Below are positions 3,931-64,000 of a stretch of DNA of 64,000 nucleotides, piece by piece. The stretch is taken from assembly GCA_026874595.1 (NCBI GenBank), contig CM049308.1, positions 79,406,124 through 79,470,123 of the forward strand. The letters are read 5' to 3'. Both the position numbers and the translations under genes were made by a program. Within the stretch, counting starts at the first letter, position 1; the number at the start of each line of letters is the position of its first letter. A model generated the notes under the pieces. That model had not been told where the DNA came from and did not search any database. It worked only from the letters and a program-made list of their open reading frames with translations. This stretch comes from Sipunculus nudus. Taxonomy: Eukaryota; Annelida; Sipuncula; Golfingiida; Sipunculidae.

Positions 3931-5750
3931 ATACGGGTAGTCGACAAGCGACTACTTGTATCCGCCTAAATCAGAGTGGAACGGGTGAAGTGTTGCATAT
4001 TAGCATGGATGTCTGCAGCCAAATTGTGTATGTAGGTTGCGCTACCTACAAAAAAATCCAGAAAGCTCTATACACATGCAAAACTTTGGCCCAATCGGTC
4101 AAACGGTTCCCAAGATATGAGCTTGGATATCTGCTGCATAAACTAGAATGCAGGTGGCGCCACCTGTCATAAAATCAAGAGAGCTGTCGGGGAAGTATAA
4201 ACTTGCAAAATTTTAGGCAGATATGTCAAACCACTGCCGAGATATGAGTGATTTTATCCCATGGCAGACAAACAGATGGGAGCTGTGCAAACATGGCTGC
4301 AGGTGACGCCACCAGTTTTGCATATGATAAAGAGCTATGTGAGATTTATACACATGCAAAATTTTGGCCCAATCAATCAAACGGTTCCCTAGATATGAGC
4401 TTGGATGTCTGCAGCGTAAACTTGATTGTAGGTGGCGCCACCTGTCATAAAATCAGAAAAGCTATCCAGGATGTATAAGCATGCCGAATTTCAGGTGAAT
4501 TAGTCAAACCACTGCAGAGATATGAGTGATTTTAACCCAAGGCAGACGAACAGATGGACACTGTGCAAACATGGTTGCAGGTGGTGCCACCATTTTTGGT
4601 GTATGTTATAAAGCTCTCCAAGGGCTACATTTGTGCAAAAAAATTTTCCTGATCGGTCAAACGGTTCCTGAGATATGAGCTTGGATGTCTGCAGCGTAAA
4701 CGTGAATGTAGGTGGCGCCACCTGTCATAAAATCAGAAAAGCTATCCAGGATGTATACGCATGCCAAATTTCAGGTGAATTAGTCAAGTCACTGCAGAGA
4801 TATGAGTGATTTTAACCCAAGGCAGACAAACAGATGGACACTGTGCAAACATGGTTGCAGGTGGCGCCACTGTTTTTGGTGTATGTTATAAAGCTCTCCA
4901 AGGGCTACATTTGTGCAAAAGAATTTTCCTGATCGGTCAAACGGTTCCCAAGATATGGGCTTGGATGTCTGCAGCGTAAACATGAATGTAGGTGGCGCCA
5001 CCTGTCATAAAATCAGAAAAGCTATCCAGGATGTATACGCATGCCCAATTTCAGGTGAATTAGTCAAGTCACTGCAGAGATATGAGTGATTTTAACCCAA
5101 GGCAGACGAACAGATGGACACTGTGCAAACATGGTTGCAGGTGGCGCCACCATTTTTGGTGTATGTTATAAAGCTCTCCAAGGGCTACATTTGTGCAAAA
5201 GAATTTTCCTGATCGGTCAAACGGTTCCCGAGATATGAGCTTGGATGTCTGCAGCGTAAATGTGAATGTAGGTGGCGCCACCTGTCATAAAATCAGAAAA
5301 GCTATCCAGGATGTATACACATGCCGAATTTCAGGTGAATTAGTCAAGTCACTGCAGAGATATGAGTGATTTTAACCCAAGGCAGACGAACAGATGGACA
5401 CTGTGCAAACATGGTTGCAGGTGGCGCCACCATTTTTGGTATATGTTATAAAGCTCTCCGAGGGCTACATTTGTGCAAAAAAATTTTCCTAATCGGTCAA
5501 ACGGTTCCCGAGATATGTGGGTTTATGTGTGGAAACAGACGCACAAACGGACGCAGAGCGCAAAGGAAAGGTCAGAGGTCAAAACAAAATCACGGCGCAG
5601 CAGTTCACATGTGACCCGAACATAATCCCGGGTTTCGGAAAATTCCGCCCAGCAGTTACGGAGGAGTTCTCCGGACACCTACGCGGCGGCCGCGGCCGCG
5701 GCCAGCTGAAAACATAGTATCCGCAAAACTCTGTTTTGGCGGATACAATT
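3931..5750 (+). mobile_element. Family B (pearl/HINE-like), complete copy 1
   Basis: Left end: a hairpin at 3937-3955 (GTAGTCG-ACAAG-CGACTAC), followed at once by TTGTATCCGCC (3956-3966). Right end: a hairpin at 5717-5746 (GTATCCGC...GCGGATAC) containing the reverse complement GGCGGATACAA (5738-5748), so the element has subterminal inverted repeats plus a palindrome at each end. In between are about five 280-bp core repeats (see the tandem repeat entry), a short degenerate ACGG-type stretch (ACGCACAAACGGACGC, about 5538-5553) and a very GC-rich run of GCGGCCGC at 5683-5703. This order of parts is that of bivalve pearl elements and Helentron-associated HINEs. No protein is encoded. Confidence 0.78.
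4006..5515 (+). repeat. 280-bp core tandem repeat of family B
   Basis: The motif ACTGC(A/C)GAGATATGAGTGA recurs at about 4233, 4511, 4791, 5071 and 5351, with exact 280-base spacing in the last three steps. Each unit is itself a dimer of two related halves of about 140 bp, both carrying a GAGATATGAG block and a TAGGTGGCGCCACC palindrome. Adjacent 280-bp units are nearly identical, suggesting recent amplification or homogenisation. Several opposite-strand frames stay open in the repeats but change with them and are not genes. Confidence 0.9.
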
Positions 5751-28880: not shown

Positions 28881-29518
28881 AATTGTTTAAAAAAGATGAC
28901 AAAAATATTATATCAAAAATTTTACTTGATAAATAATATAGCTAATCAAACATGTTGTATACACAGCAGAATACTGATTATCCAAAAATGGATATATCTC
29001 TGGAATTGTACAAATCTATGCTCTTTACTCAACAATACCATCTACAACTTATGCTTCAAGAGGAATGATTTTGCTAGGTTTACAGGGTCTGACTGTAAGA
29101 AGGGGGTACAAGGTGCTAGGCAAATCCCTTTATGTTTTGAGATTGGTTAGCTGATCAAAAACAATATAGATATAACCATATGAAACCTCATCTAAATACA
29201 ATAAAGATCACAACTACTGGATCAGAGTTTGTCCTGTGACATACATATGTATGTATGTATGTGTGTATGTTCAGACCTGTAACTCAAAAAATACACCACA
29301 TTAGAAATGAAAATTTAAAACCTATACATTGGTAGGTCTGTCTGTTTCCCTCAAAGATCATCCTGAACACACACTGCAGAATCACAGGGTCCAAAATATA
29401 CTGCAGGTCTCTTCTTTGTGGTTCTCCTTGATATATCTTTTACAAATGCACGCTCATCTAGATTTTGCAGAGCTATACCCTTAGTACTCAAGGCATTTGT
29501 AGGTCTGTATATATATAT
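28881..29518. other. Non-coding
   Basis: Includes a (GTAT)n microsatellite at about 29245-29272 and a short TA run (29508-29517) that is the insertion site of the following element. Confidence 0.5.
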
Positions 29519-30497
29519 GTCGAGGGAAGAATGAGAATCTGGGAAGATCCGGAATCCTCCCGGGAAAAATGAGATTTCTGATTTTTCCCGGGGAAAAGTG
29601 AGAATTCTAATTTTTCCCGGGAATAAGGGGAATTCCCATTCTTCCGGGGGAAAATCAGAATCATTTCCCACTTTGATTTGATTCTCATTTTTTCCGGGAA
29701 GAATGAGAATTCTGATTTTTCCCAGGGAAAAAACAGAATTCTTATTATTCCCAGCCAGCTCCAATTTGTTAATTGATATCCTTTTAATATTTAAGGTGGG
29801 TTAAGTTTGCATATTTTACTACAGTATCTGGTTAGTCAACACTCTAAAATCCAACATAAATAATTGTGTATCATCAAGATTTAGAGAGGTTTTTTTTTTG
29901 CCCAACAAAATATGTAATATCAGGAAATCATTTAATATGAACTGTCCATTTTACTGGTAATAAAACAAACCAGTGTGTGCATTCTTTTTTTAAATGCAAT
30001 AAAGTTCAGGTAATTGTCTGTCGTTAGATATCCATCAGATATTTGAGAAACACATTGTGCCAAGGTGGTCCAATACGGTGACACAATCATCTAAAACTTA
30101 TTTAATTTTAACTTTGAACAGTTAATAATTAATGTGAAAGAAAGATGATCAAAGTTTCTTTCTGAAAAAGAGAAATAAGTATGAAATAAATTTAAAGAGT
30201 TAGGTTGGCATCAATAATTCCCATTCTTCCTGGGAAGAATGAGAATTCTCATTTTTCCCAGGTTTGAATTTCAAAACTGAATTCCAATCTCTCAGAGGAA
30301 AAATGAGAATTCTCAATTTTCCTGGGAGAGACTGGAATTCTCATTTGTCCCAGGAAGAATGAGAATTCTCATTCTTCCTGGGAAGAATGGAAATCCCTTC
30401 ATTCCATTTCTGGATTCTCATTTTTCCCGGGAAAAATCAGAATTGTAATTTTTCCCGGGAAATTCGGATCTTCCCAGATTTTCATTCTTCCCTCAAC
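29519..30497. mobile_element. TIR element built of CCCGGG/GAATTC palindromes, in a TA run
   Basis: The left end GTCGAGGGAAGAATGAGAAT and the reverse complement of the right end (GTTGAGGGAAGAATGAAAAT) match for over 40 bases with few differences. Both ends are bordered by TATATAT. Each inverted-repeat region (about 29519-29755 and 30215-30497) is an array of short palindromes, TTTTTCCCGGGAAAAA and ATGAGAATTCTCAT in many variants. The centre is AT-rich and non-coding. The apparent 137-residue minus-strand frame across the left arm is a consequence of the repeat. Superfamily unknown; the structure is foldback/MITE-like. Confidence 0.78.
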
Positions 30498-31377
30498 ATA
30501 TATATACATGATTACAGTAAAAGATTGTACTTTCAAGTTATTTACATTTTTCATGATCTGCACAACCCTTAAAAATGCCTTGAGTGGATTATGGCCTAAA
30601 TAAAATTGTGAATATATGGGTCTGAGTTAGTAAAAAGGAAAATTTGTATTTCCTCATATGAGTAATATCCATGTGTTTATGTATATTAAAAATTATTCAA
30701 GTTAACTTTTATATTTAATTTTTAAATAATCCTGCTCACTAATTGACAATATTTTCATGATATATTACCAAGCTATCTCATTTTTCCTGCCATCAAAACC
30801 AAAACTATGACCAGAGGCTGAAGACCCTGGATGCTTGTGACACTGTTATACATATGTTGTACATATATGTATGTGATGTATGGTATTGTACATAACAAAA
30901 ATACTGAGTCTGATTACTGACTATCAGTCATGTTCACAAATACTGGCCTATACCAGGTCTGATTTATTATAACAAGTCATGTCAACAAATACCGGCTTGT
31001 TTGAGTATAAATCTGCTCCTGCCATATATGTGCAGCAAAACTCTAACACTAATGCTGGCTGACTGTGTAACATAACCTTTAAATGCAATATGAGTGACAC
31101 CACTCTGGTTACAAACATATGTTCATCATGCAAAGCAAGGAGGACAGATATCTGTCAAACCAACCAGTACAGTAAAAAACACACCCCAAGTACAGTGAAA
31201 CTTCTTCATCTGAAAATCTGTTGCTTTATTATGTACAACGTTTGTTTACAAATCAAATTTTGCAAAAGTTATAGTAGGTCATGGTGACATGTTTACTAAC
31301 ATTTCATATAAATATACTATTTGCAACTAAATGGTGATGAAAATTAATCTTTAAACTTTTTTTGGATTAGCACTGTA
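30498..31377. other. Non-coding
   Basis: Contains a small direct repeat: GTCATGTTCACAAATACTGGC near 30928 and GTCATGTCAACAAATACCGGC near 30977. Otherwise nothing recognised. Confidence 0.4.
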
Positions 31378-38816: not shown

Positions 38817-40738
38817 AACAAGGGACCTATGGGTCACTGTGCTCAGCTGACGTTAACCTTGAAGGTAAAAATCTAAAATAATATCAAATGGAGAGAAAGT
38901 GTAAGAGGAAGAGGTAATAAAGGCCATGGTTGGTTTATATGATTGGTTTGTATTGATGAGCAAAAATTGTTGCAAATAATATTTTGTGACCTGACCATGT
39001 GTTTCCTAATGTTGAAACTGAAGCATGTGTGCAGTTTGTGAACAAATGATCTGTACAATTACCATGATGATCATTAGTTGGCTTTTCGATTAACTATTGA
39101 CATTTCAGTAGTTTACACATTTGTTCAATCAAATCTTTTTTTTGTATAATATATATTATTAAATATATGTTTTTTTTTATGAAATGTATACAGTTGAAAT
39201 ATAACTAATTAACAACATTAAACATGGCAAACAAAGCCTGATCTCAAATTCTGCTGATGCAAGAAAATAATGAACAAATGTTTGTAATAAATCCTCATTT
39301 TTTTATCACATCAATTTTTTTTTAATTTAAGTTTATATTTCTATACATTTTCAATATAACATATATATCTGAATATAAAAGTTGATTCATAATTCTCAAT
39401 TGCATCATCATAAATCTCAATCTTGTCAGATAACACCACATCATGCATACAAATGTTTATTTATTTTTTATCACAAAAATATATCTTTTAAATCTGCAAA
39501 AAAATAAATATCTAAAAAAAATACTTGATTTAGATTCCACAATTTTTAATTGTGTCTTTATTTATCCATAATGTGCTTCATATTTTATCATAATTTAAGC
39601 ATACTGATGGGTTCCATTATGATCGGTAAAATCATTTAAAAGAAAAATGATTTCTTTAAAAATGCTACATTACACAACATTGCATCTTCTGGATTACACC
39701 TTGAATTACTTTTTCAAGGAAAGTTTTTGCATATCAGAGTGGAAACAGCATTACAATTAAGGAGATACAGTGAAAACAATAACAATACTGCATAACACTT
39801 GGTGGGTTGGGTTTGCGGGGGGGGGGGGGGGGGGGAAAGGGTGATTGGGGTGGTGATATGAGAATAACTGTACACCTGTCACAGCAGGGGATCTCCCCCA
39901 GTGACTGTAACAAATCAGAAACCCTGGCATAGCTGACTTCCAGTGACCTAGAGTGGGACCCTGCATCTGTAATCTGTAATCAAAGCAAATGACTACAATA
40001 GAGCCTCAAGTAAAAAAATCAATAACTAGCTTAATTTTCAAGCTTTTACTTCTAAATTTCAGATTTAAACAAATTAAATATTTATGTTTACATGCTGTGA
40101 AAATTAAATCAATGGTACTTACAGGAAAAAAACGTGCCATGGTCAAAGTAGGGCAAAATTTAAGGTACTGATTTTATTTTTATGCTAATTACTTAAAAAA
40201 TTTACAAAATTCAGATCTAATTTTGGGTAAACAATTGAATCTTAATTAAACATAGTTATATACTTGGGAAAATAGACTCTAGTTTCAAAATTTTTCATGT
40301 TAAGTGAGAAAATATTTTTCCTGATTTTTTACAAAGTCCATTATGTTTGGGCCCATAACTTAAAGAATTTATGCTTAACAGACTTAATTTCTGACATGTA
40401 CATAGGAACTATATAGAAGAATATTTATGGTAAAAATGAGGAAAAATAGATGAGTGGTTTTGATATGAGGCAGTCCTGAAGTGTGAAAATAGGATTTTAA
40501 TAAAAAATTGAGGTTTTTCCTTAATTTCTCAAAGGAACGAAGTCGCAAAGACCCAGTTTTCGGCTTGGTAGGAGATCTTGGGGACATCTAACATTATGTT
40601 GAATTTTGGATTCCTAGGTCTTACGGTTTTAAAACGTGCCACATCTACGGACGGACGGACGGACGGACGGACAGACGGACGGACGACGGACAATGGACCA
40701 CGACTATAGCTCAGATGACTTATAGTCAGCTGAGCTAA
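38817..40738 (+). mobile_element. Family A, complete copy (1.9 kb)
   Basis: Head AACAAGGGACCTATGGGTC (38817-38835) with a GACC-TATGGGTC near-palindrome and subterminal GCTCAGCTGA (38841-38850). Interior text matches 19440-19620 and 51050-51250. A 19-base G run lies at 39817-39835. One core unit runs from about 40088 (CATGCTGTGAAAATTAAATC) through the CAAAGGAACGAAGTCGCAAA block. The tail is (ACGG)n at 40647-40690, a palindrome at 40708-40736 containing TCAGCTGAGCT (the inverse of the head's subterminal repeat) and CTAA. This is one of the clearest copies for defining both ends. Confidence 0.78.
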
Positions 40739-40747
40739 AAAACTATA

Positions 40748-41754
40748 ATACGGGTAGTCGACAAGTGACTACGTGTATCCGCTTAAATCAGAGTGGAACG
40801 GGTGAAGTGAGGCATGGATTGAGTAACAAGGGGAAATAGAGTGTAGTGTTGCATACAAGCATGGATGTCTGCAGCCGAACTCCCACAAAATCCAGAAAGC
40901 CATCCAAGTTGTATACATATGCAAAATTTAAGGCAGATAAGTCAAACCACTACATGTATACGAGTGATTTTAGCCTGTGGCAGACAAACAGACGGACGCT
41001 GTACAAAAATTGTTGCAGGTGGTGCCACCTGTTTTGCGTATGATAAAGAGCTATGTGAGATCAATATACATGCAAAATTTTGGCCAAATCGGTCAAACAG
41101 TCCCTGAGATATGAGCTTGGATGTCTGCAGCATAAACTAGAATGTAGGTGGCGCCACCTGTAATAAAATCAAGAGAGCTGTCTAGGATGTATAAACCTGC
41201 AAAATTTTAGGCAGATATGTCAAACCACTGCCGAGATATGAGCGATTTTATCCCACGGCAGACAAACAGACGGATGCTGTGCAAAAATGGTTGCAGGTGG
41301 CGCCACCAGTTTTGCGTATGATAAAGAGCCATGTAAAATCTATACACATGCAAAATTTTGGCCCAATTGATCAAACCGTTCCCAAGATATGAGCTTGGAT
41401 GTCTGCAGCGTAAACTAGAATGTAGGTGGCGCCACCATTTTTTGTGTATGTTATAAAGCTCTCCAAGAGCTACATTTGTGCAAAATATTTTTTCCTGATC
41501 GGTCAAATGGTTCCCGAGATATGTGGGTTTATGTGTGGAAACAGATGCACAAATGGAGGCAGAGCACAGAGGAAAGGTCAGAGGTCAAAACAAAATCGGG
41601 GCGCAGCAGTTCACATGTGACCCCAACATAATCCCGGGTTTCGTAAAATTCCGCCCAGCTGTCACGGAGTTCTCCGGACACCTAAGCGGCAGCCGCGGCA
41701 GCGGTGGTGGGCTGAAAAAAATAGTATCCGCATAACTGTTTTGGCGGATACAAT
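40748..41754 (+). mobile_element. Family B, complete copy 2
   Basis: Left hairpin at 40754-40772 (GTAGTCG-ACAAG-TGACTAC, one mismatch to copy 1), TGTATCCGC next to it, then two to three core half-units with TAGGTGGCGCCACC. An ACGG-like stretch lies near 41548, a GGCAGCCGCGGCAGCGG run near 41687, and the right hairpin at 41724-41750 (GTATCCGC...GCGGATAC). It begins 10 bases after the CTAA end of the family A copy, so the two elements are joined tail to head. Confidence 0.78.
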
Positions 41755-42000
41755 AATATTTATATAAACACAATGTATACATTTAAATTTAGAAGCACAC
41801 AAACAGAATATGTTTAAATATAATTGCACAAATTTTATGCACTAATTAAGAAACTGTGGACATATCTGTTGAATTCTGACAGTATAGTTATAGTTTGTTT
41901 ATGCCATTAACACAAGTAAAGCTCTAATGATAAACCAACAAACAATACATAACAATTAACACACATGTAGTCAGAAATTGTTTCAGTATTCTTGGATGTA

Positions 42001-44610
42001 AACAAGGGACCTATGGGTCACGAAGCTCAGCTGTTATATATGATAAAAAAATATTATTTAGAAATGAGGCACATGCTGGTTTTGTGTGGTAATAAATATA
42101 AGCTGTATTATGAGTTGTTGTTTAGCTTATGTATGATTTTGATAGTACCTTTGGAGACAGGGAAGAGGATTGATTTCATTTATTTTATTAACAAATGGAG
42201 TACTACTGTCACACAGATTTTGACTTGGCCATATAACTTATAAGCAGAACATATAATATAAGAGTTTAACTATTTATTAAAAAAATTACAAATATTGTCC
42301 CAAATATAATTTTTATTTAAAATAATAAGAGAATCATATGATTTTTTAAAATGAAATATAACTGATATGATTATTAAAATAATATTAAAGAATATATTCA
42401 TGAATGCATTCATGAATACATTTTGAAAGTATTTGCACGAGTATTCATATACTTTCATTTTTACCTGAATTCCCATTCTTTATGCAAGAAATTTTATAAT
42501 GGAGTACATAATCATATTCGTATTTAAATACAATTACAAAGTATTCGCACCATGTCTGGTATTTATTCAGTTTTCACCAAACAATGATGTTGAGAATCCA
42601 GAATATACAAAATTCACACATTTAAATAATGATCATAAGTACCTGGTTTTATGGCTTTTATTTATATTAAAAAATAACTGTAAAAAATTCATTTTGGACT
42701 AATTTCACATCAATGTACACACTAGACACAGTAGGAATCTAGATTAATACTATCAACTGCATCTTTGTCTATCATTAATTTCCTTCATATAATCCTTAAT
42801 GATTAGTAATGAATAATATGATTTACTTCTTTATCATTAAAAATGAACTGAAAAATGCCATAGGTGACTGCATGGTGTTATTTGGAATATGTGACATTCT
42901 ACCCATCGATACAAGATTCTTATATCATCAGTAACTGCAAGTTAATTTCCTGTTATTATAAACTAACAAATTCCTTTTCTATTTTTCTTTAATTTGTTAT
43001 TTAAAACCAATAAAAATTTATTAATTTATTGTTTATTGTTATGTTGTTGGTTAAAACTACTAGATGAGTTGGGTTGAACACCTGGATCAACTGTGGCTGG
43101 CCATAAGCTGCCTGGATTCTCCCCTCAAGCGTGCATAATTTGATGAAAGGTCAACAAGGTCAACATACAGGTGACTCAAGAGGGGCTGGAGAGAGCCAAA
43201 GTCTGACAGGGTCTCATAAAAAACATTAATAAAAGCTACAATATTTGGCAAATTTCTTTTAGCTTTCTAAACTAAAAAGCTGAAATCCTTATGTGTGCAT
43301 GATATGAAAATTATATCAACAGTGCTCACGGGAAACAAACGTGACATGGTCACAGTTGGGCAAAATTTAAGGTACTAATTTTATATTTATACTAATAACT
43401 TATAAAATTTGAAAAATTCAGAACTAATTTTGGGTATTCAATTGAATCTTGATTAAATAATGTTACATCCCTGACAAAAAAGATCTCTAGCTTCAGCAAT
43501 GCCCTTGTTAAGGGAGTAAATATATTTCTTGATTTTTTACAAAGTGCATTATGTTTGGGCCCATAACTTAAAAAAAATACACAATACTGACATCATTTCT
43601 GGCATGTGCATAGTGAATGTATAGAAAAATATGTATATTATATATGATCAAAGTCAGATCAGTGGTTTTGATATTAGGCAGTCTTAAAGTGTAACATTGG
43701 GTTTTTAATGGAAAAATGAAGTTTTTCATTGATATCTTGAAGGAATTAAGTCCTAGTGACCAAATTCTTGGCATGGTAGGGGATTTTGGAGAAATCTAAC
43801 TGTATGCCAAATTTAAGGAACTTAGAGCTGAAGCTCGGGAGCTGAGCTCTAGCAAACTGCATAACACTAGCAATATGTGACATGGTGCTTGAAAACTTGA
43901 ATAAAATCTACAGTTTTTGATCAACTGGTTTCAAATTTTTGGTGTTAACAGTTGAAATGCTAACAAAAACATGCTGTGAAAATTAAATCCACAGCAGTTA
44001 CAGCAAAAAAAACGTGCCATGGTCAAAGTTGGGCAAAATTTAAGGTACAAATTTTTTATTTTTGCTAATATTTTTAAAAATTTAAAAGATTTTGATCTAA
44101 TTTTGGGTATACAATTTAATTTTGATTAATAAAAGTAATATTACTGGAAAAAAAGTGCTTAGCTTTAACAAGTTTTGTGTTAAGTGATAAAATTTCTTTC
44201 CTGATTATTTACAAAATGCATTATGTTTGGGCCCATAACTTTTTTAAATTAAATAATACAGACCTAATTTCTGGCATGTACATAGGAATTATATAGAGGA
44301 TTATTTATAGGAAATATGAGGAAAAACAGATGAGTGGTTTTGATATTAGGCAGTCCTAAAGTGTGAAAATAGGTTTTTAATAAAAAATTGAGGTTTTTCC
44401 TTAATTTCTCAAAGGAATGAAGTCGCAAAGACCCAGTTTTCGGCTTGGTAGGAGATCTTGGGGACATCTAACATTATGCTGAATTTTGGATTCCTAGGTC
44501 TTACGGTTTCAAAACGTGCCACATCTACGGACGGACGGACGGACGGACGGACGGACGACGGACAATGGACCACGACTATAGCTCAGATGACTTATAGTCA
44601 GCTGAGCTAA
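42001..44610 (+). mobile_element. Family A, long copy with two core units
   Basis: Head AACAAGGGACCTATGGGTCA at 42001 with subterminal GCTCAGCTG. The interior at 42030-42720 is the same sequence found inverted in 58550-59410. A middle segment at 42720-43260 is shared with 52620-53150 and 63700-64000. There are two tandem core units, a diverged one (43295-43850) and a well-conserved one (43970-44515). Then (ACGG)n (44527-44560), a 29-bp palindrome (44580-44608) and CTAA. No protein with recognised motifs is encoded. Confidence 0.78.
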
Positions 44611-45449
44611 AAATTGACCATCCAATGGAATGCAATGTCTGACAAATAATGAAAGTCTTTTAACATCATACATGGTGAAACTTTGTCTGACAATTAAATC
44701 AGTCTTTAATCACCATATTAGATAATATAAGGCAGAGTGACTGCATCTGGTTGGCTGATTGTTAAGTTTTATTGAAGTTATGGAGATAAATCATGTCAAG
44801 AAATTTGTCATATTTCAATAAACAAGGCATCAAATAGGCTTGGAATTTAAAATATTATATGTATTTTATGTTAACAAAATAAATAATTTAAGATGATCTT
44901 TCAACATAACCTCACAACAACATGAAAATTACAGTGATGAAGAATAATTGAACATCCTAATTATAAAAAGACTGTACTATATATTAACTGTTCTACAGTC
45001 AAATGCTTAATTACTGACAAATATAAAATTATATAAATGAAATAAAATTACACCATAAAATTAATATGACAGAAATTTTTACACAGACTATCTAACTTTC
45101 TAATGTTCCTGGAAAGGATTGGATAAGAATGAAGATAAAACTTAAGCCAATTTAAAAGGTGGATCCATCCCCCCCCCCCCCCCCCCCCCCCCCCCCAACT
45201 CATTGATATCCACAGATGACTTGCGAGAAGTGGGCACATACACATTAAAATTTGTCACAATTACATTATATTGGAAAAAAAAAATAAAACCAGGTGTCTG
45301 ATAATTATAACCTTGATATATGTACCATATAACCTATATTTAATGTTCTGACCAGCACTGGTCATTTAAACAGTAACAGTACAACCTGCCTCAGGGTTAA
45401 TCATGAGTTCATCTGGTGGTCTTACCTTGTTATATATTTAGCTACAGCT
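44611..45449. other. Non-coding with a 28-base C run
   Basis: AT-rich. The C28 run at 45169-45196 is the longest homopolymer in the window and would form a G-quadruplex on the minus strand. Confidence 0.6.
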
Positions 45450-50499: not shown

Positions 50500-53400
50500 A
50501 ACAAGGGACCCATGGGTCACGGCGCTCAGCTGATCATGATTGGACTATAAATGTATCACCATTAAGATACTATATTGAGTAGATAAAGCTTAGAATATCA
50601 TGGTCATGTTGGGCTTTTATTAAGGAATATAATGTAATATGTGAGTAAATGATATATGAAATAACCTGACTGATGGATTAATATGGAGTAAAATATAGTG
50701 GTTTATTCTTTATTTATTTGGGAGGGGTCGAAAAAAGCAATTTATTTGAGCAAATATGAATGCAATGACAGTATGCCAAGCAGTGGTATAATGATGATAA
50801 GGCTATTTGTTGAAGGATCTATAGTGTATGGAAAACTGTAAGCTTTCAATTTGACAGATACAAGGTTATGATTAACTATACTGATGAGGGGATTTATGAA
50901 TTTGTGACTGTATGACATAATATCTTGACAGGATCGGTCTTGACAAGGTGCATTATTTTGATGCCCCTCACGTCTACATATTACACAATATTGACATAAT
51001 TTCTGGCATGTACATAGGTACCTATGGACAAATGGTCAACAATACTGAACCACCTGGAAGGTTAAAATCTTAAAAATATGATGAAATGTAGATAATGTTT
51101 GAGAGGAAGAGGTAATCTGGGCCATGGTTGGTTTATATGATTGAACAAAATGTTGCAAATAATATTTGAGACCTGACCATGCCTTTCCATTGGTTACCTT
51201 TTTGATAAGCTGTTGACAGTTCAACAGTTTACACATTTGTCTGATGAGATCCAAATTATTTGGTAAACCTTTTTTATCAATTTTATGATATGTATACAGT
51301 TGCCATAACGTCCCCATTCCACAGGTGCAATGATTTGATGGGGGGGGGGGGGGGAGGGGTGTTGTGTTATAATCAGAGTTACAATGCCTCTGTCTCTCTG
51401 TAGATATTTTTATTAATTATTAAATTTTATGCTATAGCCATAGAACTATTGATCACAGTGCCAAGGAGCAAAGCCTCAGTGGGATGAAGAAGGGGATGGT
51501 GAGAGTTACAACACCCTTGCATATACATACAGGATATGAAATTTAATTCAACAGTGCTTATAAAAAAAGTTTATTCATGAACATTAAATATTTAAAACAG
51601 ACAGAAAGATGGAGAAACAAAGCAAATAATTTTTTTCCCCATTCTACTGAGCCAAGAAAAAATTAACAATATTTGCATTTATTCCTTTTTTTCATTACAT
51701 AATTTTAATCAAAGTTTCCGAATGTTGCTATAAATTTACAGTATAACATACATTTGATTGTGAATATTTCAGTTGATTCACATTTCTAAATTGCATCAAC
51801 ATTTATAGCTAATGTATCTAGTTTATAGTACCTGTCAACAGAATGGGATGGAGGAAGGAAGGGAGGCAATTAGGGAGAGAGAGAAAGAGAGAGAGAGAGA
51901 AATAGAGAAAGAAAGATGGAGAAAGAAAGAGAAAAAGCACAGGAGAGAGAGAGAGAAAGAGAGACCTAGACTGCTAGAGAGAGAGAGAAAGAGAGGCTCT
52001 CTGGTAATTACTGCCTGACCCAGCCTGACCCAGACACTCACAGTTGCAGTAGGTCAGACCTGAAGGTGTCATGTAACTGCCCAGTACACTGCATTTATAC
52101 TGATCTGATGCAAACAATGAAGACATGGTACCTGGAAACTTGAATAAAATCTACAGTTTTTGATCTATTGGTTTCAAATTTCAGATTTTAACAGATGAAA
52201 TGTTAATGTGTACATGCTGTGAAAATTATATCCACAGCACTAACAGGAAAAATTTGAATATTTGTATTTTTTTAAATGGTATCAGAAAAAAAGAAAAGTA
52301 TTCTCAGCTATAAAACTAATACATGTGTTAAAATTAATCCAAGGATCAAAACACCCAATATATCATACCAGGAGCAAACTGGAGTTGTGAATGTTTAATT
52401 TTATGAACTGAAATAAAGGACCAGCAATATAAATTTTGATTATTTAGCCAGTCTCATGTAACAACTGATACAACCATGAGTTATAAGTCAAACAAATTAA
52501 AATCTTTAATGAACACTTGTCTGAGTAATATTTTAAAGTTTTGACATATTTATTCATTATTTTAATTTTGTAATAAATATAAACCAACAAGTTAAAGACC
52601 TGGAAAAGACCTGGAAATTTAGATTAATTTAATATAATCAACTGCATCCTTGTCTATCATTATCTTGCTTCATTTAATCCCTAATAGTAAACAACAATTT
52701 ATTTTATTTATTTATTTTTCATTTTTATGGTTGAAATGAAAAATACCCAATGGTGACTGCATGGTGTCATTTGAAATACAATTTTGGCCATCCATGGAAG
52801 ATCCATAAATGATCAGTAATTGCAAGGTAATCCCCTGTAACTCATTAACTATAAATTCCTTTTCCATTTATTTTTTTTAAGTTCTTATCATAAACCAAAT
52901 ATTAAAAAAAAAGTTTATTGTTATGTTTATGGCCTAAACAAATACTAGTGGAGGGAGTTGGACAGTTAGATCCAGTTGAAGCCACCCAAGAGCTGGCTGG
53001 CTGCAGAGTGCCTCGCTTCAAGCATGCATAATTGGCCTGAAAGGTCAATGTGGGGACATCAGAGAGGGGCTTCAGTACAGCTAAGGTGTGATATGGTCTC
53101 ATTAAATCTTTCATAAAAGCTAGTTTTTGACCAATTCCTTTTATAACTTCAGAATTTAGAAGCTAAAATCCTTATGTGTGCAAAATATGAAAATTAAATC
53201 AACAGTGCTTACAGGGAAAAAACATGCCATGGCAAAAAGTTGGGCAAAATTTAAGGTACTGATTTTATATTTATGCTAATAACTTATAAAATTTGAAAAA
53301 TTCAGAACTAATTTTGGGAATACAATTGAATCTTGATTAAATAATGTTATATCCCTGGCAAAAAATGTCTACCTTCAGCAATTTTCATGTTAAGAGAGTA

Positions 53401-53690
53401 AATATATTTCTTGATTTTTTACAAAGTGCATTATGTTTGGGCCTAGAACTTAAAACAATTACACAATACTGACATCATTTCTGGCATATGCAGAGCGAAT
53501 GTATAGAAAAATATGTATATTATATATTATCAAAGTCAGATCAGTGGTTTTGATATTAGCAAATTTAAAGTGTAACAATGGGGTTTTAATGGAAAAATGA
53601 AGTTTTTTCTTAATATCTCGAAGGAATGCAGTCTTAGTGACCAAACTTTTCGTATGGTAGAGGATTTGGGGGCCATAATAATTATTCTTT
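50500..53690 (+). mobile_element. Family A, long copy lacking its 3' tail
   Basis: The head at 50500 has a perfect 12-bp palindrome GACCCATGGGTC (50507-50518) and subterminal GCTCAGCTGA (50524-50533), the best-preserved head in the window. The interior matches 38860-39150 (51050-51250), a G14 run (51341-51354), a middle segment (52620-53150) and a diverged core unit (53180-53680). The (ACGG)n tract and terminal palindrome are missing; similarity is lost after GGTAGAGGATTTGGGGG. A GA-rich tract at 51850-51990 and part of another core start (52130-52230) lie inside. Confidence 0.62.
51850..51990. repeat. GA-rich simple sequence
   Basis: Imperfect GAGAGAAA repeats. The charged frame (arginine/glutamate) and its opposite (serine/leucine) are by-products of composition. 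Confidence 0.95.
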
Positions 53691-55889: not shown

Positions 55890-56990
55890 ACCTACTCTAC
55901 AACTCCAAGACACTGTTTGAGGGTGGTGCACTTACACCAGAAAATGTTTTGCAACCTAATCTGCAACTTTTTTTGTGGATCATTAATGCTGTCATCAAAC
56001 AGCTCTGCCCCTAAAAGACACTGCTTCACCGGTAATTCACCTACTGTAGCCTCCCACACAGTATATTGGTGGTTCAACAATGTGGTAGTTAAATAACTAT
56101 GATCTTTATTCACCTGCACTGATAGTTCACCTACACAACATCTTACACACAGTTTCATATCCCCTACCCTGCCTCACAGACAATGTTTAATTGATGGCCC
56201 ACATACACTGGCAGTTCATCTACTCTGACCTCCTAGACACTGTTTCATCACCTGCTCTGTACCCACACACAGTGTATCTGATGGTCCACCTGACCTGGCT
56301 GATCACCTACTCTAACCTCCTAGACATTATTTCATCACCAACCCTACCTCACAGAAATTTGTTTAATTGATAGCCCACATATACTGGCAGTTCACCTCCT
56401 TTGCCCTCCTAGGCACTGTTTCATCACCTACTCTGCCTCACAGACAATGTTTAATTGATGGTCCATGCACACTGGCAGTTCACCTACTTTAACCTCCTAG
56501 ACACAGTTTCATCACCTGCTCTGTACCCGCACAGAGTGTATCTGATGGTCCACCTGTACTGACAGTTCACCTACTCTAACCTCCTAGACATTTTTTCATC
56601 ACCAACCCTACCTCACAGAAATTTGTTTAATTGATAGCCCACATATACTGGCAGTTCACCTACTTTGCCCTCCTAGACACTGTTTCATCAACTACTCTGC
56701 CTCACAGACAATGTTTAATTGATGGTCCATGCATTCTGGCAGTTCACCTACTTTAACCTCCTCAACACTGTTTCATCGCCTGCTCTGTACCCACACACGG
56801 TGTATCAGATAGTCCACCTGCACTGACAGTTCACACACCTTAACTTATAGACATGGTTTAATCACCTGCTCTGTACTCACACACAGTGTACCTGATGGTC
56901 CACTGCACTGACAGTTCACCTGCTCTTACCTCTTAGACAATGTTTCATCACTTGTTCTATACCCACACACAGTGTATTTCACTGTCCACA
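55890..56990 (+). repeat. 88-bp satellite with 264-bp higher-order period
   Basis: Monomers of 87-89 bp start CAGTTCACCTACT, then CCTCCTAGACA, TTTCATCACC and a TTGATGGTCCA or TCTGATGGTCCACCTG ending. Three monomer types alternate: starts at 56212, 56476 and 56740 are exactly 264 apart. The array is regular from about 56150 to 56840 and decays on both sides. No frame is conserved across monomers. Confidence 0.9.
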
Positions 56991-57796
56991 TTCAGGTTCA
57001 GGTTCAAGAACCGACACACATCACATTTTTGTACCCTTCATGGAAATTGGCAAAATTTCACATATTTTGTTTCAATGGCAAATTTTCAGAAAGAAAAGAT
57101 AGATGGTCCCTAAGTGTGTAAAACATTTTTTTGGTAGTGGCCTGAACAAAGCAGTGACCAAAGTAATGAAGGATGTAAAATTACAGCTCAAAATAACCCC
57201 AACTGGCCATCCCTCACACATTCTGTCAAAAGTGCTAACTTGGTAAATATCTGTTCATAGACAGAGTTAATTTTAGAACAAGAGACAATGTATGTGGCAG
57301 TTGTAATGACGTTAGATACCTGGGTGTGACACACAAAAAGGACATCTATATCAATTTATCTTGGGTTCTGTTTGTGCGTCACACCACTCAGTTGTGTCAT
57401 TCACACATGCAAACTATACATCTGTAATATAAATGCCCACTTCACACCATTGTGTTAACCATGTCATGTCCTGTCTACTGACGCTGATGTTGCATTTAAT
57501 ACCTATTCCAAATGACTTTTGTTTCTTTTAACATCTTAAGTTTATTTGCATTCCATATTTCACACTTGAAAAGGCTGCAAAGTGTACATATTTATATACA
57601 ATGCAGTGTTCGAAATACTGGGTGCCTAGGTGCACAGATGCACCAAAAAATGTTTTTTTATGCACCCACTGTATCACTTCAAGGTGCGCAGTGTGCACCT
57701 GAGGCTGGTTACTAGGACAGATCAGCAGGATATAGACACTTGCACATCTGAAAGTATAGATGTTCATATCCTGAACTTCAATCTCGTCTGTGACAT
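56991..57796. other. Non-coding with one hAT-like end
   Basis: At 57604 the text CAGTGTTCGAAATACTGGGT is a familiar hAT-type start. No matching second end was found before the TA run. The open frames near 57528-57767 follow the GTGCACC/GGTGCA repeats next to it. Confidence 0.35.
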
Positions 57797-57805
57797 ATAT
57801 ATATA

Positions 57806-57850
<45 letters not shown>
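57797..57850. repeat. (TA)n microsatellite, left flank of a TIR element
   Basis: A TA run with one TTTA interruption, ending exactly where GTCAAGGCCC begins. Confidence 0.95.
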
Positions 57851-57853
<3 letters not shown>

Positions 57854-59860
57854 AAGGCCCAGATTGCGATCTGGACAGATCTTAGATCTGTCCAGCCCAA
57901 ATTGCGATCGCAGTTCAGGCTGGCCCAAACTGCGATCGCAATCCAGGCTGGCCAGATCTTAGATCTGTCCAGCCTATATTGCGATCGCAGTTTAGTCCGG
58001 CCCAGATTGCGATTTTGTCTTTTTTGCTTCAGGATCGCAATCTGGACTGGACAGATCTAAGATCTGTCCAGTCAAGATTGCGATCCTAAACTTGACCAGC
58101 CCATATTGCGATCCATGCGATCCAAGTGTTTCAGCTTGTTAATTTATAGTTATTTTAAAATTTAAAAAAAGTAAAATATTTCAAAATTTTAAAATTTTAC
58201 TCAGACAAGTTCTGATTAAATATGTCAATATGTTTTACTAATAATATTAAGACTCGTGGCTGTATCAGCTGTCACAAGACTATGTAAACAATCAAAATCT
58301 GTATTGCTGGTTCCTCAATTTATGTTAATAAAATTAAACTTGCCCATCTCTAGTTTTCTCCTTGTACAATTTATAGGGTGTTCTTATGCTTGAGTTATTT
58401 TTTATTCTTATAATGGTTTCATAGCTGAGATTTCTTTTAAATTTTTTTTACATTTTTTTTAATAAAAATATTTAAATATGATAAAAAATCAGATCTTAGA
58501 CAAGTTCTCTTTATGATTTCTGTAATGTTGATAATTGTCATAAGACTTTTGCTATGTCTAGTGCTTAGATTGATGTGAAAGTAGTCCAAAGTGAATATAA
58601 TAGTTTTATGTTTAAATATAAATTAAAGCCATAAAACCAGGTGCTTATGATCATTATGATCATACTTATGATCAATTTGTGAAATTTGTAAATTCTGGAT
58701 TCTCAAGAACTTTGTTTGTGCTGTAACTGAATAAATACCAGACATGATTAGAATACTTTGCAAATATATTTGAATGCGTATATGAATATATTTACTCCAT
58801 AATTTCATGCATAAAAATAGGAATACAGGTATTAATGGAAGTATTTGAATACAGATGCAAATACTTTCAAAATGTAATCATGAATGTATTCATGAATATA
58901 TTCTATAATATTATTTTAATAATCATCTATTTCAAATATATTATTAAAAGATCTTTTCATATGATGCTGTTATTATTTTTAATTTAAATTATATTTGACA
59001 CAATATTTGTTATTAATTTATAATAAATAGTAATTATATTTAAGTTTTATTCTTGGGTAGGAATAACCAGTAATTATTAAATAAAAGTTCTCATTTGTAA
59101 AAATCAGAATTACCATGACTGATAATGGACAGGTTTTTTTTTTCAAATAATTCTACTGCAATGTAGATAAAGTTATATGGCCAAGTCCAAAGCTATGAGA
59201 AAACAGCACACCATTTCCAGCTGTATATAAAATAAATGACATCAATCCTCTTCCCTGTCTCCAAGGATATTATCATAATCTTACATAACTTGAGTTAAAC
59301 ACCATCAGCTCATAATGCAGCTTATATTACCACACAAAACCTGCACTTGCCTACCTCCTCTTCCAAATCATATTTTGTGAGCATATAAAACCCATGGGTT
59401 CCTTGTTACCTTTTTTCAACAACCATGCAATACTAAATGAGTTGGTGAAACATCCCATGTTTCACTCCTGTGATATGAAGGAGTGAAAATTGCCTTTCTG
59501 TATTATAATTGTATTTATCATGGGAAAATGGTACAATGCAATACCAAATGAGTTGGTAAAACAACCAATGTTTCACTCCTGTGATCGTAAAAGCATGGAT
59601 CGCAATATGGGCTGGTCAAGTTTAGGATCGCAATCTCGGCTGGACTGATCTTAGATCTGTCCAGACCAGATTGCAATCCTGAAGCAAGAAAGACAGGATC
59701 GCAGTCTGGGCCGGACTAAACTGCGATCGCAATCTAGGCTGGACGGATTTAAGATCTGGCCAGCCTGGATTGCGATCGCAGTTTGGGCTGGCCTGAACTG
59801 CGATCGCAATTTGGGCTGGACAGATCTAAGATCTGTCCAGATCGCGATCTGGGCCTTGAC
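57851..59860. mobile_element. TIR element built of GCGATCGC/AGATCT palindromes, complete copy
   Basis: The 268-bp terminal inverted repeats (57851-58118 and 59593-59860) start GTCAAGGCCCAGAT and are nearly identical to each other. Each is an array of palindromes: TTGCGATCGCA, CAGATCTTAGATCTG and GGCC-centred blocks. Both outer ends sit in (TA)n. The 1.47-kb interior is AT-rich; 58550-59410 is an inverted copy of the first part of family A (42030-42720), including the ATAAAACCCATGGGTT head remnant. There is no transposase. Frames in the arms come from the palindromes. Confidence 0.8.
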
Positions 59861-59880
59861 ATATATATATATATATATAT
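59861..59880. repeat. (AT)10 between two TIR elements
   Basis: A pure 20-base AT run separating the inward end of one copy from the outward end of the next. The two arms around it form a near-perfect inverted repeat of over 240 bp with only this loop. Confidence 0.95.
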
Positions 59881-61581
59881 GTCAAGGCCCAGATTGCGAT
59901 CTGGACGGATCTTAGATCTGTCCAGCCAAAATTGCGATCGCAGTTCAGGCCAGCCCAAACTGCGATCGCAATCCAGGCTGGCCAGATCTTAAATCCGTCC
60001 AGCCTATATTGCGATCGCAGTTTAGTCCGGCCCAGATTGCGATCTTGTCTTTCTTGCTTCAGGATCGCAATCTAAGATCTGTCCAGTCAAGATTGTGATC
60101 CTAAACTTGACCAGCCCATATTGCGATCCAAGCGATCCAAGTGTTTCAGCTTGTTAATTTATAGTTATTTTAAAATTTAAAAAGAGTAAAATATGTCAAA
60201 ATTTTAAAATTTTACTCAGAGTACTGATTAAATATGTCAATATGTTTCACTAATAATATTAAGACTCGTGGCTGTATCAGCTGTCACAAGACTATGTAAA
60301 TAATCAAAATCTGTATTGCTGGTTCCTCAATTTATGTTAATAAAATTAAACTTGCCCTTTTCTAGTTTTCTCCTTGTACAATTTATAGGGTGTTCTTATG
60401 CTTGAGTTATTTTTTATTCTTATAATGGTTTCATAGCTGAGATTTCTTCTAAATTTTTTTTACATTTTTTTAAATAAAAATATTTAAATATGATAAAAAA
60501 TCATACCTTAGACAAGTTCTCGTTATGATTTCTGTAATGTTGATAATTGTCATAAGACTTTTGCTATGTCTAGTGCTTAGATTGATGTGAAAGTAGTCCA
60601 AAGTGAATACAATAGTTTTTATTCAAATATAAATTAAAGCCATAAAACCAGGTACTTATGATCATTATGATCATACTTATGATCAATTTGTGAAATTTGT
60701 AAATTCTGGATTCTCAAGAACTCTGTTTTGCTGAAACTGAATAAATACCAGACATGATAAGAATACTTTGCAAATATATTTGAATGCGAATATGAATATA
60801 TGTACTCCATAATTTCATGCATAAAAATAGGAATACAGGTATAAATGAAAGTATTTGAATACAAATGCAAATACTTTCAAAATGTAATCATGAATGTATT
60901 CATGAATATATTCTATAATATTATTTTAATAATCATTTATTTCAATTATATTATTAAAAGATCTTTTCATATGATGCTGTTCTTATTTTTAATTTAAATT
61001 ATATTTGACACAATATTTGTTATTAATTTATAATAAATAGTTATATTATTTAAGTTTTATTCTTGGGTAGGAATAACCAGTAATTATTAAATAAAAGTTC
61101 TCATTTGTAAAAATCAGAATTACCATGACTGATAATGGACAGGTTTTTTTTTTCAAATAATTCTACTGCAGTGTAGATAAAGTTATATGGCCAAGTCAAA
61201 CCTATGTGAAAACAGCACACCATTCCAACTGTATATAATATAAATGACATCAATCCTCTTCCCTGTCTCCAAGGATATTATCATAATCTTACATAACTTG
61301 AGTCAAACACCATCAGCTCATAATGCAGCTTATATTACCACACAAAACCTGCACTTGCCTACCTCCCCTTTCAAATCATATTTTGTGAGCATATAAAACC
61401 CATGGTTTCCTTGTTACCTTTTTTCAACAACCATGCAATACTAAATGAGTTGGTGAAACATCCCATGTTTCACTCCTGTGATATGAAGGAGTGAAAATTG
61501 CCTTTCTGTATTATAATTGTATTTATTATGGGAAAATGGTACAATGCAATACCAAATGAGTTGGTAAAACAACCAATGTTT
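59881..61581. mobile_element. GATC-palindrome TIR element, second copy, right end missing
   Basis: The left arm 59881-60131 and interior 60132-61581 repeat 57851-59580 with few differences (a small deletion in the arm near 60070 and scattered substitutions). Similarity stops at ACCAATGTTTCA, where family C text begins, so the right arm was lost or replaced. A conserved tract near 61445-61500 (GTTTCACTCCTGTGATATGA) is shared with 59460. Confidence 0.8.
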
Positions 61582-62608
61582 CATATAAGTCAGGTTTGAA
61601 ATCTATATATTAATCCAAGCTTGAATTATCATCTCAGGAACTAATTTTTGGACAGATGGCTCCTGTGACCTTCACCTTTGACCTTGTGACCTCACAATTG
61701 ACAGGCGTCTTCCTCTATTGGCAGGGGAACTGTATGTGCAAGATGAAATGTCTGAGATGAAATGTTTGGCTGAAAATGCATCCACAATCTTTTTAAAGAT
61801 GTGTCCTGTGACCTTGACCTTTGACCTCATGACACCAAAATCAATTCAAGTCTTGCTTTTTCAATGGGACATATATAAGTCAAGTTTGAAATCTATACAT
61901 CAATAAAAGCAGGAATTATCATCCAGAAACTAATTTTTTTACAGATGGCTCCTGTGGCCTTGACCTTTGACCTTGTGACCCCAAAATTGATATGGATCAT
62001 CCACTATTGGCAAGTGAGCTATATATTCAAGATGGAAGACCTGAGATGAAAGTTTGGCTTAAAATGCATCCACAGTATCTTTTAAGATGCAAGTCCAGTG
62101 ACCTTGACCATGACCCAAATGTAAATAGACCTCATCCCATAACCCATCTCTCTACATGTGCATAATATGAAAGAAATCTGTCCATTAGTTTTTGACTTAT
62201 AATGCTTACAGTACTGTCAAGTGGCAATTAGGGGGTATTAAAAGGCGTAAAAACAAGAAAAGGATAATAGGTGGCGCCACCAGTTTCCGGTATATCACAA
62301 GGCTATCCAAGATCTTTGGTCACCTTGATTTTTGGACCAGTCCATGCAAGCTTACTTAAGATACTTAAGAATTTGTGTTATTTTCAGCAAAAATGGACCT
62401 ATTCAAGGTCAAGGTCACTCTCCTAGCATAGGTCATGACCCCATTTTAAATAGGCTTCGTCCCCTTACCTATATCTATACAAATGTAAAGTTTGAAAAAA
62501 ATCAGTGAAATTTTTTTTAGTTATCCTGCTCACAAGGTTTTTCTGCGGCGGCAGCGGCGGGACCGTCGTGAAACCATAGTATCCCGACTTTGTCTGGGGA
62601 TACAATTA
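61582..62608 (+). mobile_element. Family C (HINE-like), long copy with tandem nuclear-receptor-like modules
   Basis: The head is missing, cut at the junction with the truncated TIR element. Tandem modules of about 140-280 bp start TATAAGTCA-GTTTGAAATC and carry TGACCTTGACCTTTGACCT (61809-61827), TGACCTTTGACC (61961-61972), ACCTTGACCATGACC (62100-62114) and CAAGGTCAAGGTCA (62404-62417). One TAGGTGGCGCCACC palindrome (about 62268-62281) links it to family B. The tail is GCGGCGGCAGCGGCGGGACC, then the hairpin GTATCCC...GGGATAC (62579-62603) and CAATTA, much like the B tail. No protein is encoded. Confidence 0.68.
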
Positions 62609-62999
62609 TAACCAGCTAAAACAAATATGGCTACTCATGCAGGACACATCGTATCTACCAGATCATTGTGAAGAGAAAAACTGTTGTGAAACATAAACTG
62701 GAGATTCATTGTAAAATTCTTAACTGCCATATTAGGTTTTCACTTCCATATGTTGTTTTCTAAGAAATTATGGGAAAATATAAACTTTTTAGAAAATTAT
62801 CTACAAATAAACAGGTGGACAGCAGATGGTGAAATGAACTTTAGTGAAAACTGTTGCAAGCTCTGTTTGAAGTGAAAACTCAAGAATACACACAACAAAC
62901 CTATAAAGCCAGCTATTCACCTGCTTTATCATAGGAATTTATGTATTTTCTGGCTTACTCTGGATACGTTTTGATGAACTCTAGGTGATTCCTGTTAAA
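62609..62999. other. Non-coding
   Basis: AT-rich, with no feature recognised. Confidence 0.45.
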
Positions 63000-64000
63000 A
63001 ACAAGGGATCAATGGGTCAAGGCGCTCAGCTGTTACATATGATAAAAAAATATGATTTAGAAATGAGGCACATGCTTGTTTTGTGTGGAAATAAATATAA
63101 GCTGTATTATGAGTTGTGGGTGTTTAGCTTATGTATGATTTTGATAGTACCTTTGAAGACAGGGAAGAGGATTGATTTCGTTTATTTTATTAACAAATGA
63201 AGTGCTATTGTCACACAGATTTTGACTTGGCCATATATAAGCAGAACATATAATATAAGAGATTAACTATTTAATAAAAAATTATAAATTGTCCCAAATA
63301 TAATTTTTATTAAAAATAATAAGAGAATCGTATGATTTTTTCAAATAAAATACAACTGAAATGATTATTTAAATAATATCGAAGAATATATTCATGAATG
63401 GTTTCATTAATACAATTTGAAAGTATTTGCACTGGTATTCATATACTTTCATTTTTACCTGAATTCCCATTCTTATGCAAACAATTTTATAATGGAGTAC
63501 ATATTCATATTCGTCTTCAAATACATTTGCAAAGTATTCGCACCATGTCTGGTATTTATTCAGTTTTAACCAAACAATGATGATGAGAATCCAGAATATA
63601 CAAAATTCACACATTTAAATAATGATCATAAGTACCTGGTTTTATGGCTTTTATTCATATTAAAAAAAAATAAATGTAATATATTCATTTTGGACTAATT
63701 TCACATCAATGTACACACTAGACACAGCAGGAATCTATATTAATATTATCAACTGCATCTTAGTCTATCATTAATTTCCTTCATATGATCCCTAATGATT
63801 AGTAATGAAAAATATGATTTATATTTTTATCATTAAAATTGAACTGAAAAATACCATAGGTAACTGCATGGTGTTATTGAGAATACGTGACATTCTATCA
63901 ATCGATACAAGATTCTTATATCATCAGTAACTGCAAGTTAATTTCCAGTTATTATCAACTAACAAATTCCTTTCCCATTTTTCTTTAATTTGTTATTAAA
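63000..64000 (+). mobile_element. Family A, 5' part, running off the window
   Basis: The head ACAAGGGATCAATGGGTCAA with subterminal GCTCAGCTGT is followed by about 1 kb closely matching 42010-43010 (for example GAAATGAGGCACATGCT, TTTGACTTGGCCATAT, CTGGTTTTATGGCTTTTATT). It continues beyond position 64000, so its tail is not seen. Confidence 0.75.

Follow-up and report, generated by a model that had tools for sequence, protein, structure and literature searches.

A foldback element of TA repeats in Sipunculus nudus, probably a non-autonomous relative of Ginger2 transposons

Element A, a complete non-autonomous foldback element with the termini TGTCAAGG...CCTTGACA, occupies 57850–59861 on the plus strand of the window, the 64,000-nucleotide stretch of Sipunculus nudus DNA analysed here. 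It is probably a cut-and-paste DNA transposon of the Ginger2/Tdd type with foldback arms. Its termini, the length of its target duplication, the target itself and the length of its inverted repeats all match Ginger2, and a non-autonomous Ginger2-like element is therefore the best explanation for it.

The start at GTCAAGG directly after (TA)n, which the first-pass annotation had pointed out, is present at 57851, and there is a TA flank on the right too. The arms are 268 bp long as it had reported, the left at 57851–58118 (plus strand) and the right at 59593–59860 (minus strand), and in the alignment of the left with the inverted right they are identical at 253/268 bases (94.4%). Both are palindrome arrays, in which the blocks GCGATCGC, AGATCTTAGATCT and GGCC named earlier are found. 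The 14 bases 3′ of GTCAAGG form a terminal unit that occurs 12 times in the left arm (the terminal one counted, both orientations, at most 4 mismatches); the maximum in shuffled sequence is 2. With arm positions numbered from the G of GTC, a feature whose position is common to other families is a 25-bp dyad with an 11-bp stem and a 3-nt centre; it lies at 57871–57895 (plus strand) in the left arm and, as derived from the arm alignment, at 59816–59840 (minus strand) in the right. The folding energy of a single A arm is −83.3 kcal/mol, where shuffles average −33.1 (z −15).

The left TA tract is at 57795–57849 (no strand assigned), and on the 4-bp duplication model its last four bases, 57846–57849, are the left TATA duplication. 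Its other side abuts the end remnant of a third family, a 25-bp family-C-type end at 57770–57794 (minus strand) that reads GTCACAGACGAGATTGAAGTTCAGG outward from the tract. By a by-eye count 22/25 bases of this remnant agree with the end of a complete C element at locus L015, and over the first 45 positions 27/45 agree, a level reached by 0/2000 shuffles. On the right, a tract at 59862–59879 (again without strand) is common to A and to a second copy, A′, the two being joined at this single tract of 10 TA units. What had been described as one element at 57851–61581 is thus two units, the complete one at 57850–59861 and A′ at 59880–61582 (plus strand), which is without a right arm and has 15 bases missing from its left arm. 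A′ matches A at 95.9% from 59880 to 61582. Besides the 15 missing bases, 10/253 aligned bases differ between the two left arms, and the interiors differ by 2.8%. The left arms of unlinked A copies differ by a mean of 2.6% and a maximum of 4.1%. Since the divergence of A and A′ is that of unlinked copies, a fresh tandem duplication is not favoured; more probably this TA tract received two separate insertions. [A′ terminates where a repeat begins (61583–62131) whose units of ~290 bp contain TGACCTTGACCTTTGACCT-like motifs. Tandem arrays of 34/68/202 bp and 89/176/264 bp, with higher-order periods, are present elsewhere in the window, at 1930–2645 and 56111–56977.]

The middle of A had been taken for empty AT-rich DNA, and much of it matches a repeat family, here called R. 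The interior is a mosaic: 58119–59408 (minus strand) is largely R, with matched stretches at 58121–58438, 58527–59034 and 59170–59391, all to the other strand, and with an R-end-like AACAAGG near 59407, seen by eye. Next to it, at 59409–59592 (plus strand), lies a block in which a 53-bp direct repeat occurs twice (59422–59474 and 59533–59585). The R stretches that match the A interior are also at 42000–43005, 52252–52604 and 62999–64000. [Repeat family R as a whole is present in the window at 42000–44614, 52122–53667, 62999–64000, 24–648 and 40090–40741. Its ends are AACAAGGG..AGCTCAGCTG at the 5′ side and CAGCTGAGCTAAAAA at the 3′ side, and we take it to resemble a Helentron-type non-autonomous element. 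R-like pieces are also inside the loci L057 and L078.]

The genome searched was the 1.43-Gb assembly that contains the window. The A arm yielded 1,234 first-look candidates, and the best 40 that were scored, window copy included, are all 96–100% identical. The 39 best-scoring copies besides that of the window were fetched; because they are the best matches, their flanks and ages are biased toward young copies. Those with two ends (n=33) are 1,463–3,481 bp long, with lengths clustered near 2.0 kb. Their arms are 1.4–1.6% from consensus, a small distance that marks the scored copies as young, and the left and right consensus sequences differ at 10 positions. The habit of seeking TA repeats, for which absence of TA flanks from most copies would have been fatal, holds in these copies: the left flank is TATAT, or once TATGT, in 39/39 best-scoring A copies, and the same kind of flank is present in the B ends read in 7/8 loci of family B, introduced below.

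Within TA repeats the length of a duplication is ambiguous. The duplication model takes the element as TGTC...GACA, and the leading T rests on this model. With it, the 4-bp flanks are identical in 35/38 two-ended elements (33 A, 4 B, 1 C) and in 19/21 copies in which the left TA run is shorter than 12 bases. TATG is on both sides in L048 (family A) and L054 (family B); in L018, L037 and L043 the left flank is TATA and the right one TATG. Among 85 flanks read the core is TATA in 78 and TATG in 7. The base before the site is R in 44/44 (37 A, 7 G) and the base after it Y in 41/41 (32 T, 9 C); since A and T there are mostly a consequence of TA runs, the information lies in the 7 G and 9 C. Two A copies (L026 and L035) and, by eye, one B copy (L053) share a single insertion site in a 280-bp satellite, and in empty copies of the satellite within the window this site reads GTATAC or GTATAA. 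These data fit a target R-TAT(A/G)-Y with a 4-bp TATA or TATG duplication. [The 280-bp satellite-like repeat, with its GTATAC-type site, is at 4094–5517 and 40884–41757 of the window. Several of its units are also within a long A copy of 3,481 bp (L010, oriented 1932–2992), so these elements may disperse the satellite.]

An element of the IS630/Tc1/mariner kind that duplicates just TA, or one of another superfamily with short AT duplications, would account for part of this, as 2-bp models fit 19–21/21 of the short-run copies at trims of 0–2, and at a trim of 2 bases the model of a 2-bp AT duplication agrees with 21/21. That last model requires a different terminal base in L048 and L054, where TATG on both sides calls for more than TA, and the R...Y context surrounds a 4-bp core. 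Tc1 termini are usually of the CAGT type, and those here, TGTCR, are unlike it. Such an origin is very improbable.

The same short-run copies bear on the possibility that the foldback is a non-autonomous Mutator-like element (MULE), which in an animal would parallel Medicago MuTAnT or the SaTar elements of guayule and rice. The resemblance of habit to MuTAnT is very close, with foldback arms, (TA)n flanks and one-armed defective copies in the portion of its description available (PMC4486113); SaTar, as far as the accessible text goes, is likewise in end-to-end, non-nested arrays at common microsatellites (PMC5907723), and most foldbacks seem to be Mutator elements according to the available part of PMC4079207. 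Against this, duplications of 9, 10 or 11 bp were found in 0/21 short-run copies at trims of 0–4 and 8-bp matches in at most 5/21, while the accessible parts of the two reports give 9 nt for MuTAnT outside TA runs (PMC4486113) and 10 bp for SaTar (PMC5907723). MULE membership was rejected on this length, 8–11 bp being expected from what is available of PMC5907723. Duplications of 4–10 bp are given for the IS256/MuDR group as a whole (PMC10045372), and length by itself thus leaves room for a MULE relative. Overall we regard a Mutator-like origin as unlikely.

For Ginger2, the accessible text of its description gives TGTNR termini, a 4-bp duplication, inverted repeats 45–297 bp long and RTATAY as a 6-bp target, and includes one family in a mollusc, the snail Littorina, as well as a non-autonomous family (PMC2836005). 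Across the families read, A, B and C among them, the termini are TGTCA or TGTCG, with TGTTG at the right end of B in the window; these ends all follow TGTNR. The 268-bp inverted repeats of A fall inside the Ginger2 range. The earlier proposal of an undescribed class is weakened by this agreement in termini, duplication length and target with a published group, and the microsatellite habit follows from the TATA target. Could there be an undescribed superfamily with a transposase of its own, with just target and termini in common with Ginger2? Two things speak for it: no autonomous partner was seen, and palindrome-array arms are without mention for Ginger2 in the part of PMC2836005 available. 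Termini, duplication length and the whole 6-bp target would then all have to coincide with those of Ginger2, and we give the idea little credence.

Against the Ginger2-like reading, no transposase-bearing partner with these ends was found among the elements examined; such a partner would be expected to encode an H2C2 zinc finger and a DDE integrase-type transposase. Two long candidates, L057 of 6.3 kb and L078 of 8.1 kb, are respectively an A and a C copy, both with other repeats inserted; the longest open frame has 123 codons in L057 and 134 in L078, and both were dropped as autonomous partners. Ten frames of the window gave no Pfam match above the curated cut-off. A scan for inverted end pairs over the 39 A loci and the window recovered element B and one further complete element, C, and its other rows, judged by eye, were AT-rich or internal repeats.

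Element B, at 29518–30498 (plus strand), belongs to the CCCGGG family and is a relative of A. A single boundary rule and design is indeed common to several families, as had been suggested from these two. Family B gave 898 candidates; the 39 scored besides the window copy are 88–93% identical to that copy, and by this measure the family looks older. Element C is complete (2,124 bp) at L015, where 60 bases of AT repeat separate it from a preceding A copy and more AT repeat lies beyond it; it has the ends GTCAGAGACGAGATTGAAATC and palindrome-array arms. An end motif built from families A, B and C has 2,771 matches in the genome (1,384 + 1,387), against 72 (41 + 31) for the reversed control, and this excess and the folding z of −15 rule out a chance origin. 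A scan of bacterial and archaeal genomes with the motif gave 0 matches. [The sole match in a viral collection, L001, was dropped: it is GC-rich DNA in which no arm is visible in 700 bases.]

The first 100 motif places, all on C1, give an idea of diversity. At 94 of them the sequence is within three mismatches of one among seven prototypes, with 8 of the 94 tied between the A and E prototypes; the remaining 6/100 include further types and chance. With H and I added to the seven, there are at least nine end families by the analyst's grouping of sequences. Among these 100 ends, plus–minus end pairs less than 10 kb apart have the same family at both ends in 28/30 (A and A/E counted as one), while 9/12 of the other neighbouring pairs within that distance join different families, one of them separated by just the TA of the joint. 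Ends of different families appear to meet at common TA tracts. It is rare for exactly one TATA to be common to two elements: this occurs at 2 places (2 + 2 with both strands counted), the control giving 1 + 1. [At C1:24928718–24932371, in genome G000, a G-type end is enclosed by F ends and may be nested; it is the sole hint of nesting among the first 100 ends.]

These features suggest how such elements would spread. Another locus of the genome would supply an integrase-type transposase like that of Ginger2; this enzyme would bind both the terminal dyad and the 14-bp units that alternate along the arm, and its insertions at RTATAY would be staggered by 4 bp. A TA tract would be an overlapping run of RTATAY sites and so a landing zone; every ATATAT in it is an RTATAY, which explains the microsatellite habit. 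Each insertion would leave TATA on both sides, and further insertions there could build arrays. The arms probably grew via inverted duplication of the unit adjoining the end, unit and dyad then changing in concert within each family.

The ends of A and the CCCGGG element had been thought unrelated in sequence. They match in register and have a dyad in common. Over 45 bases the in-register matches are 31 for A/C, 24 for A/B and 21 for B/C, reached by 0, 2 and 20 of 2,000 shuffles respectively. For positions 8–100 of the A and B left arms, offset 0 is the best of 180, and likewise for the A right arm with the B left arm; for the A left arm with the B right arm over these positions it is not the best (28%). 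The A and B left arms have palindrome centres at 32.5, 57 and 71 in common; at shift 0 their complete palindrome profiles correlate weakly (0.135), and this is not the highest value. For A with C, offset 0 is the best of 160 in 8–45 and again in 46–110, with both C arms; for B with C it ranks 2 and 10. The A unit positions that recur in C are 8, 46, 56 (reverse), 74, 123, 133 (reverse), 151 and 183 (reverse); of these, 46 is confined to one C arm and both 151 and 183 to the other arm. So the register common to A and C is strong, and that with B partial.

A palindrome centred at 32.5 (at least 7/10 at its centre) is present in 16/23 ends examined, and in G1 the centre is at 32.0. There is no centre at 32.5 in six of the 23, namely H2, J, C2, B2, ctl1 and ctl2, the last two of which look like chance matches. 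For covariation, 11 representatives were chosen from the 16 dyad-bearing ends, C, D1, D2, D3 and F being omitted as near repeats. For the stem, 21–31 with 35–45, pairing holds in 89.3% of cells, 28 cells carry a change in both partners and covariation scores 0.618; shuffles give 71.4%, 9.9 and 0.250 (0/500 reach each value) and slid partners at most 50.9%, 6 and 0.193, a comparison to be read with the rows being related (E/ER and G2/G3 closely) and chosen for having the dyad, as relatedness alone can beat shuffles. Two measures are not above shuffles in these rows, the number of pairs with change on both sides (7; 174/500 shuffles reach it) and that of further pair types (14; 341/500). The analysis shows a 25-bp dyad at 21–45 kept by compensatory changes in the 11 chosen ends, compatible with protein recognition or with folding.

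The arms, then, look new in that palindrome positions are kept while sequence turns over. A broader proposal, which we put forward tentatively and at somewhat less than an even chance, is of a foldback clan whose arms serve as a positional code. Across families the dyad and about a dozen 14-bp units per arm would keep their place and orientation and their letters would change together, as if the DNA-binding domain of the transposase and its sites co-evolve or the single strand must fold, and TA tracts would become growing arrays of different families. Should all this be right, microsatellite seeking needs no special mechanism: with RTATAY as target, any TA repeat serves as a landing strip, and fresh TATA is left at both ends by every insertion. 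The arms would be a record of a transposon end whose binding or folding pattern persists through sequence turnover, and co-evolution of transposase and site would be testable family by family. It would also provide an animal counterpart to the microsatellite-targeted arrays of plants, by what looks like a different enzyme.

Micron MITEs are elements of rice, a plant, that sit in (TA)n. The likeness to them proposed earlier is one of habit. The best-ranked literature matches, from coverage outside which most subscription journals fall, contain no animal TA-targeted foldback clan of this kind. Galileo and Tetris of Drosophila are alike in having long arms with internal repeats, which are proposed to be extra transposase-binding sites; they differ, in the portions of their descriptions available, in duplications of 8–10 bp and, for Tetris, in 220-bp tandem units as against the alternating 14-bp units here (PMC3688188, PMC4079207). 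MuTAnT, known from 218 copies, is also a foldback in (TA)n of which some copies are without one inverted repeat, and is set apart, in the accessible text, by a MULE transposase and by its 9-nt duplications outside TA runs, none such being seen here (PMC4486113). The end-to-end meeting of different families at common microsatellites, known from SaTar, appears to recur here; its MULE-type 10-bp duplications and its use of non-TA microsatellites, as given in the part available, are distinct from the TATA/TATG cores of the 85 flanks here (PMC5907723). Ginger2/Tdd is alike in TGTNR termini, 4-bp duplication, RTATAY target and inverted-repeat range. What sets the present elements apart from the accessible description of Ginger2 is that no transposase was seen, that the 268-bp arms are made of alternating 14-bp units with a compensated dyad, that there are at least nine end families by the analyst's grouping, and that arrays occur at TA tracts (PMC2836005).
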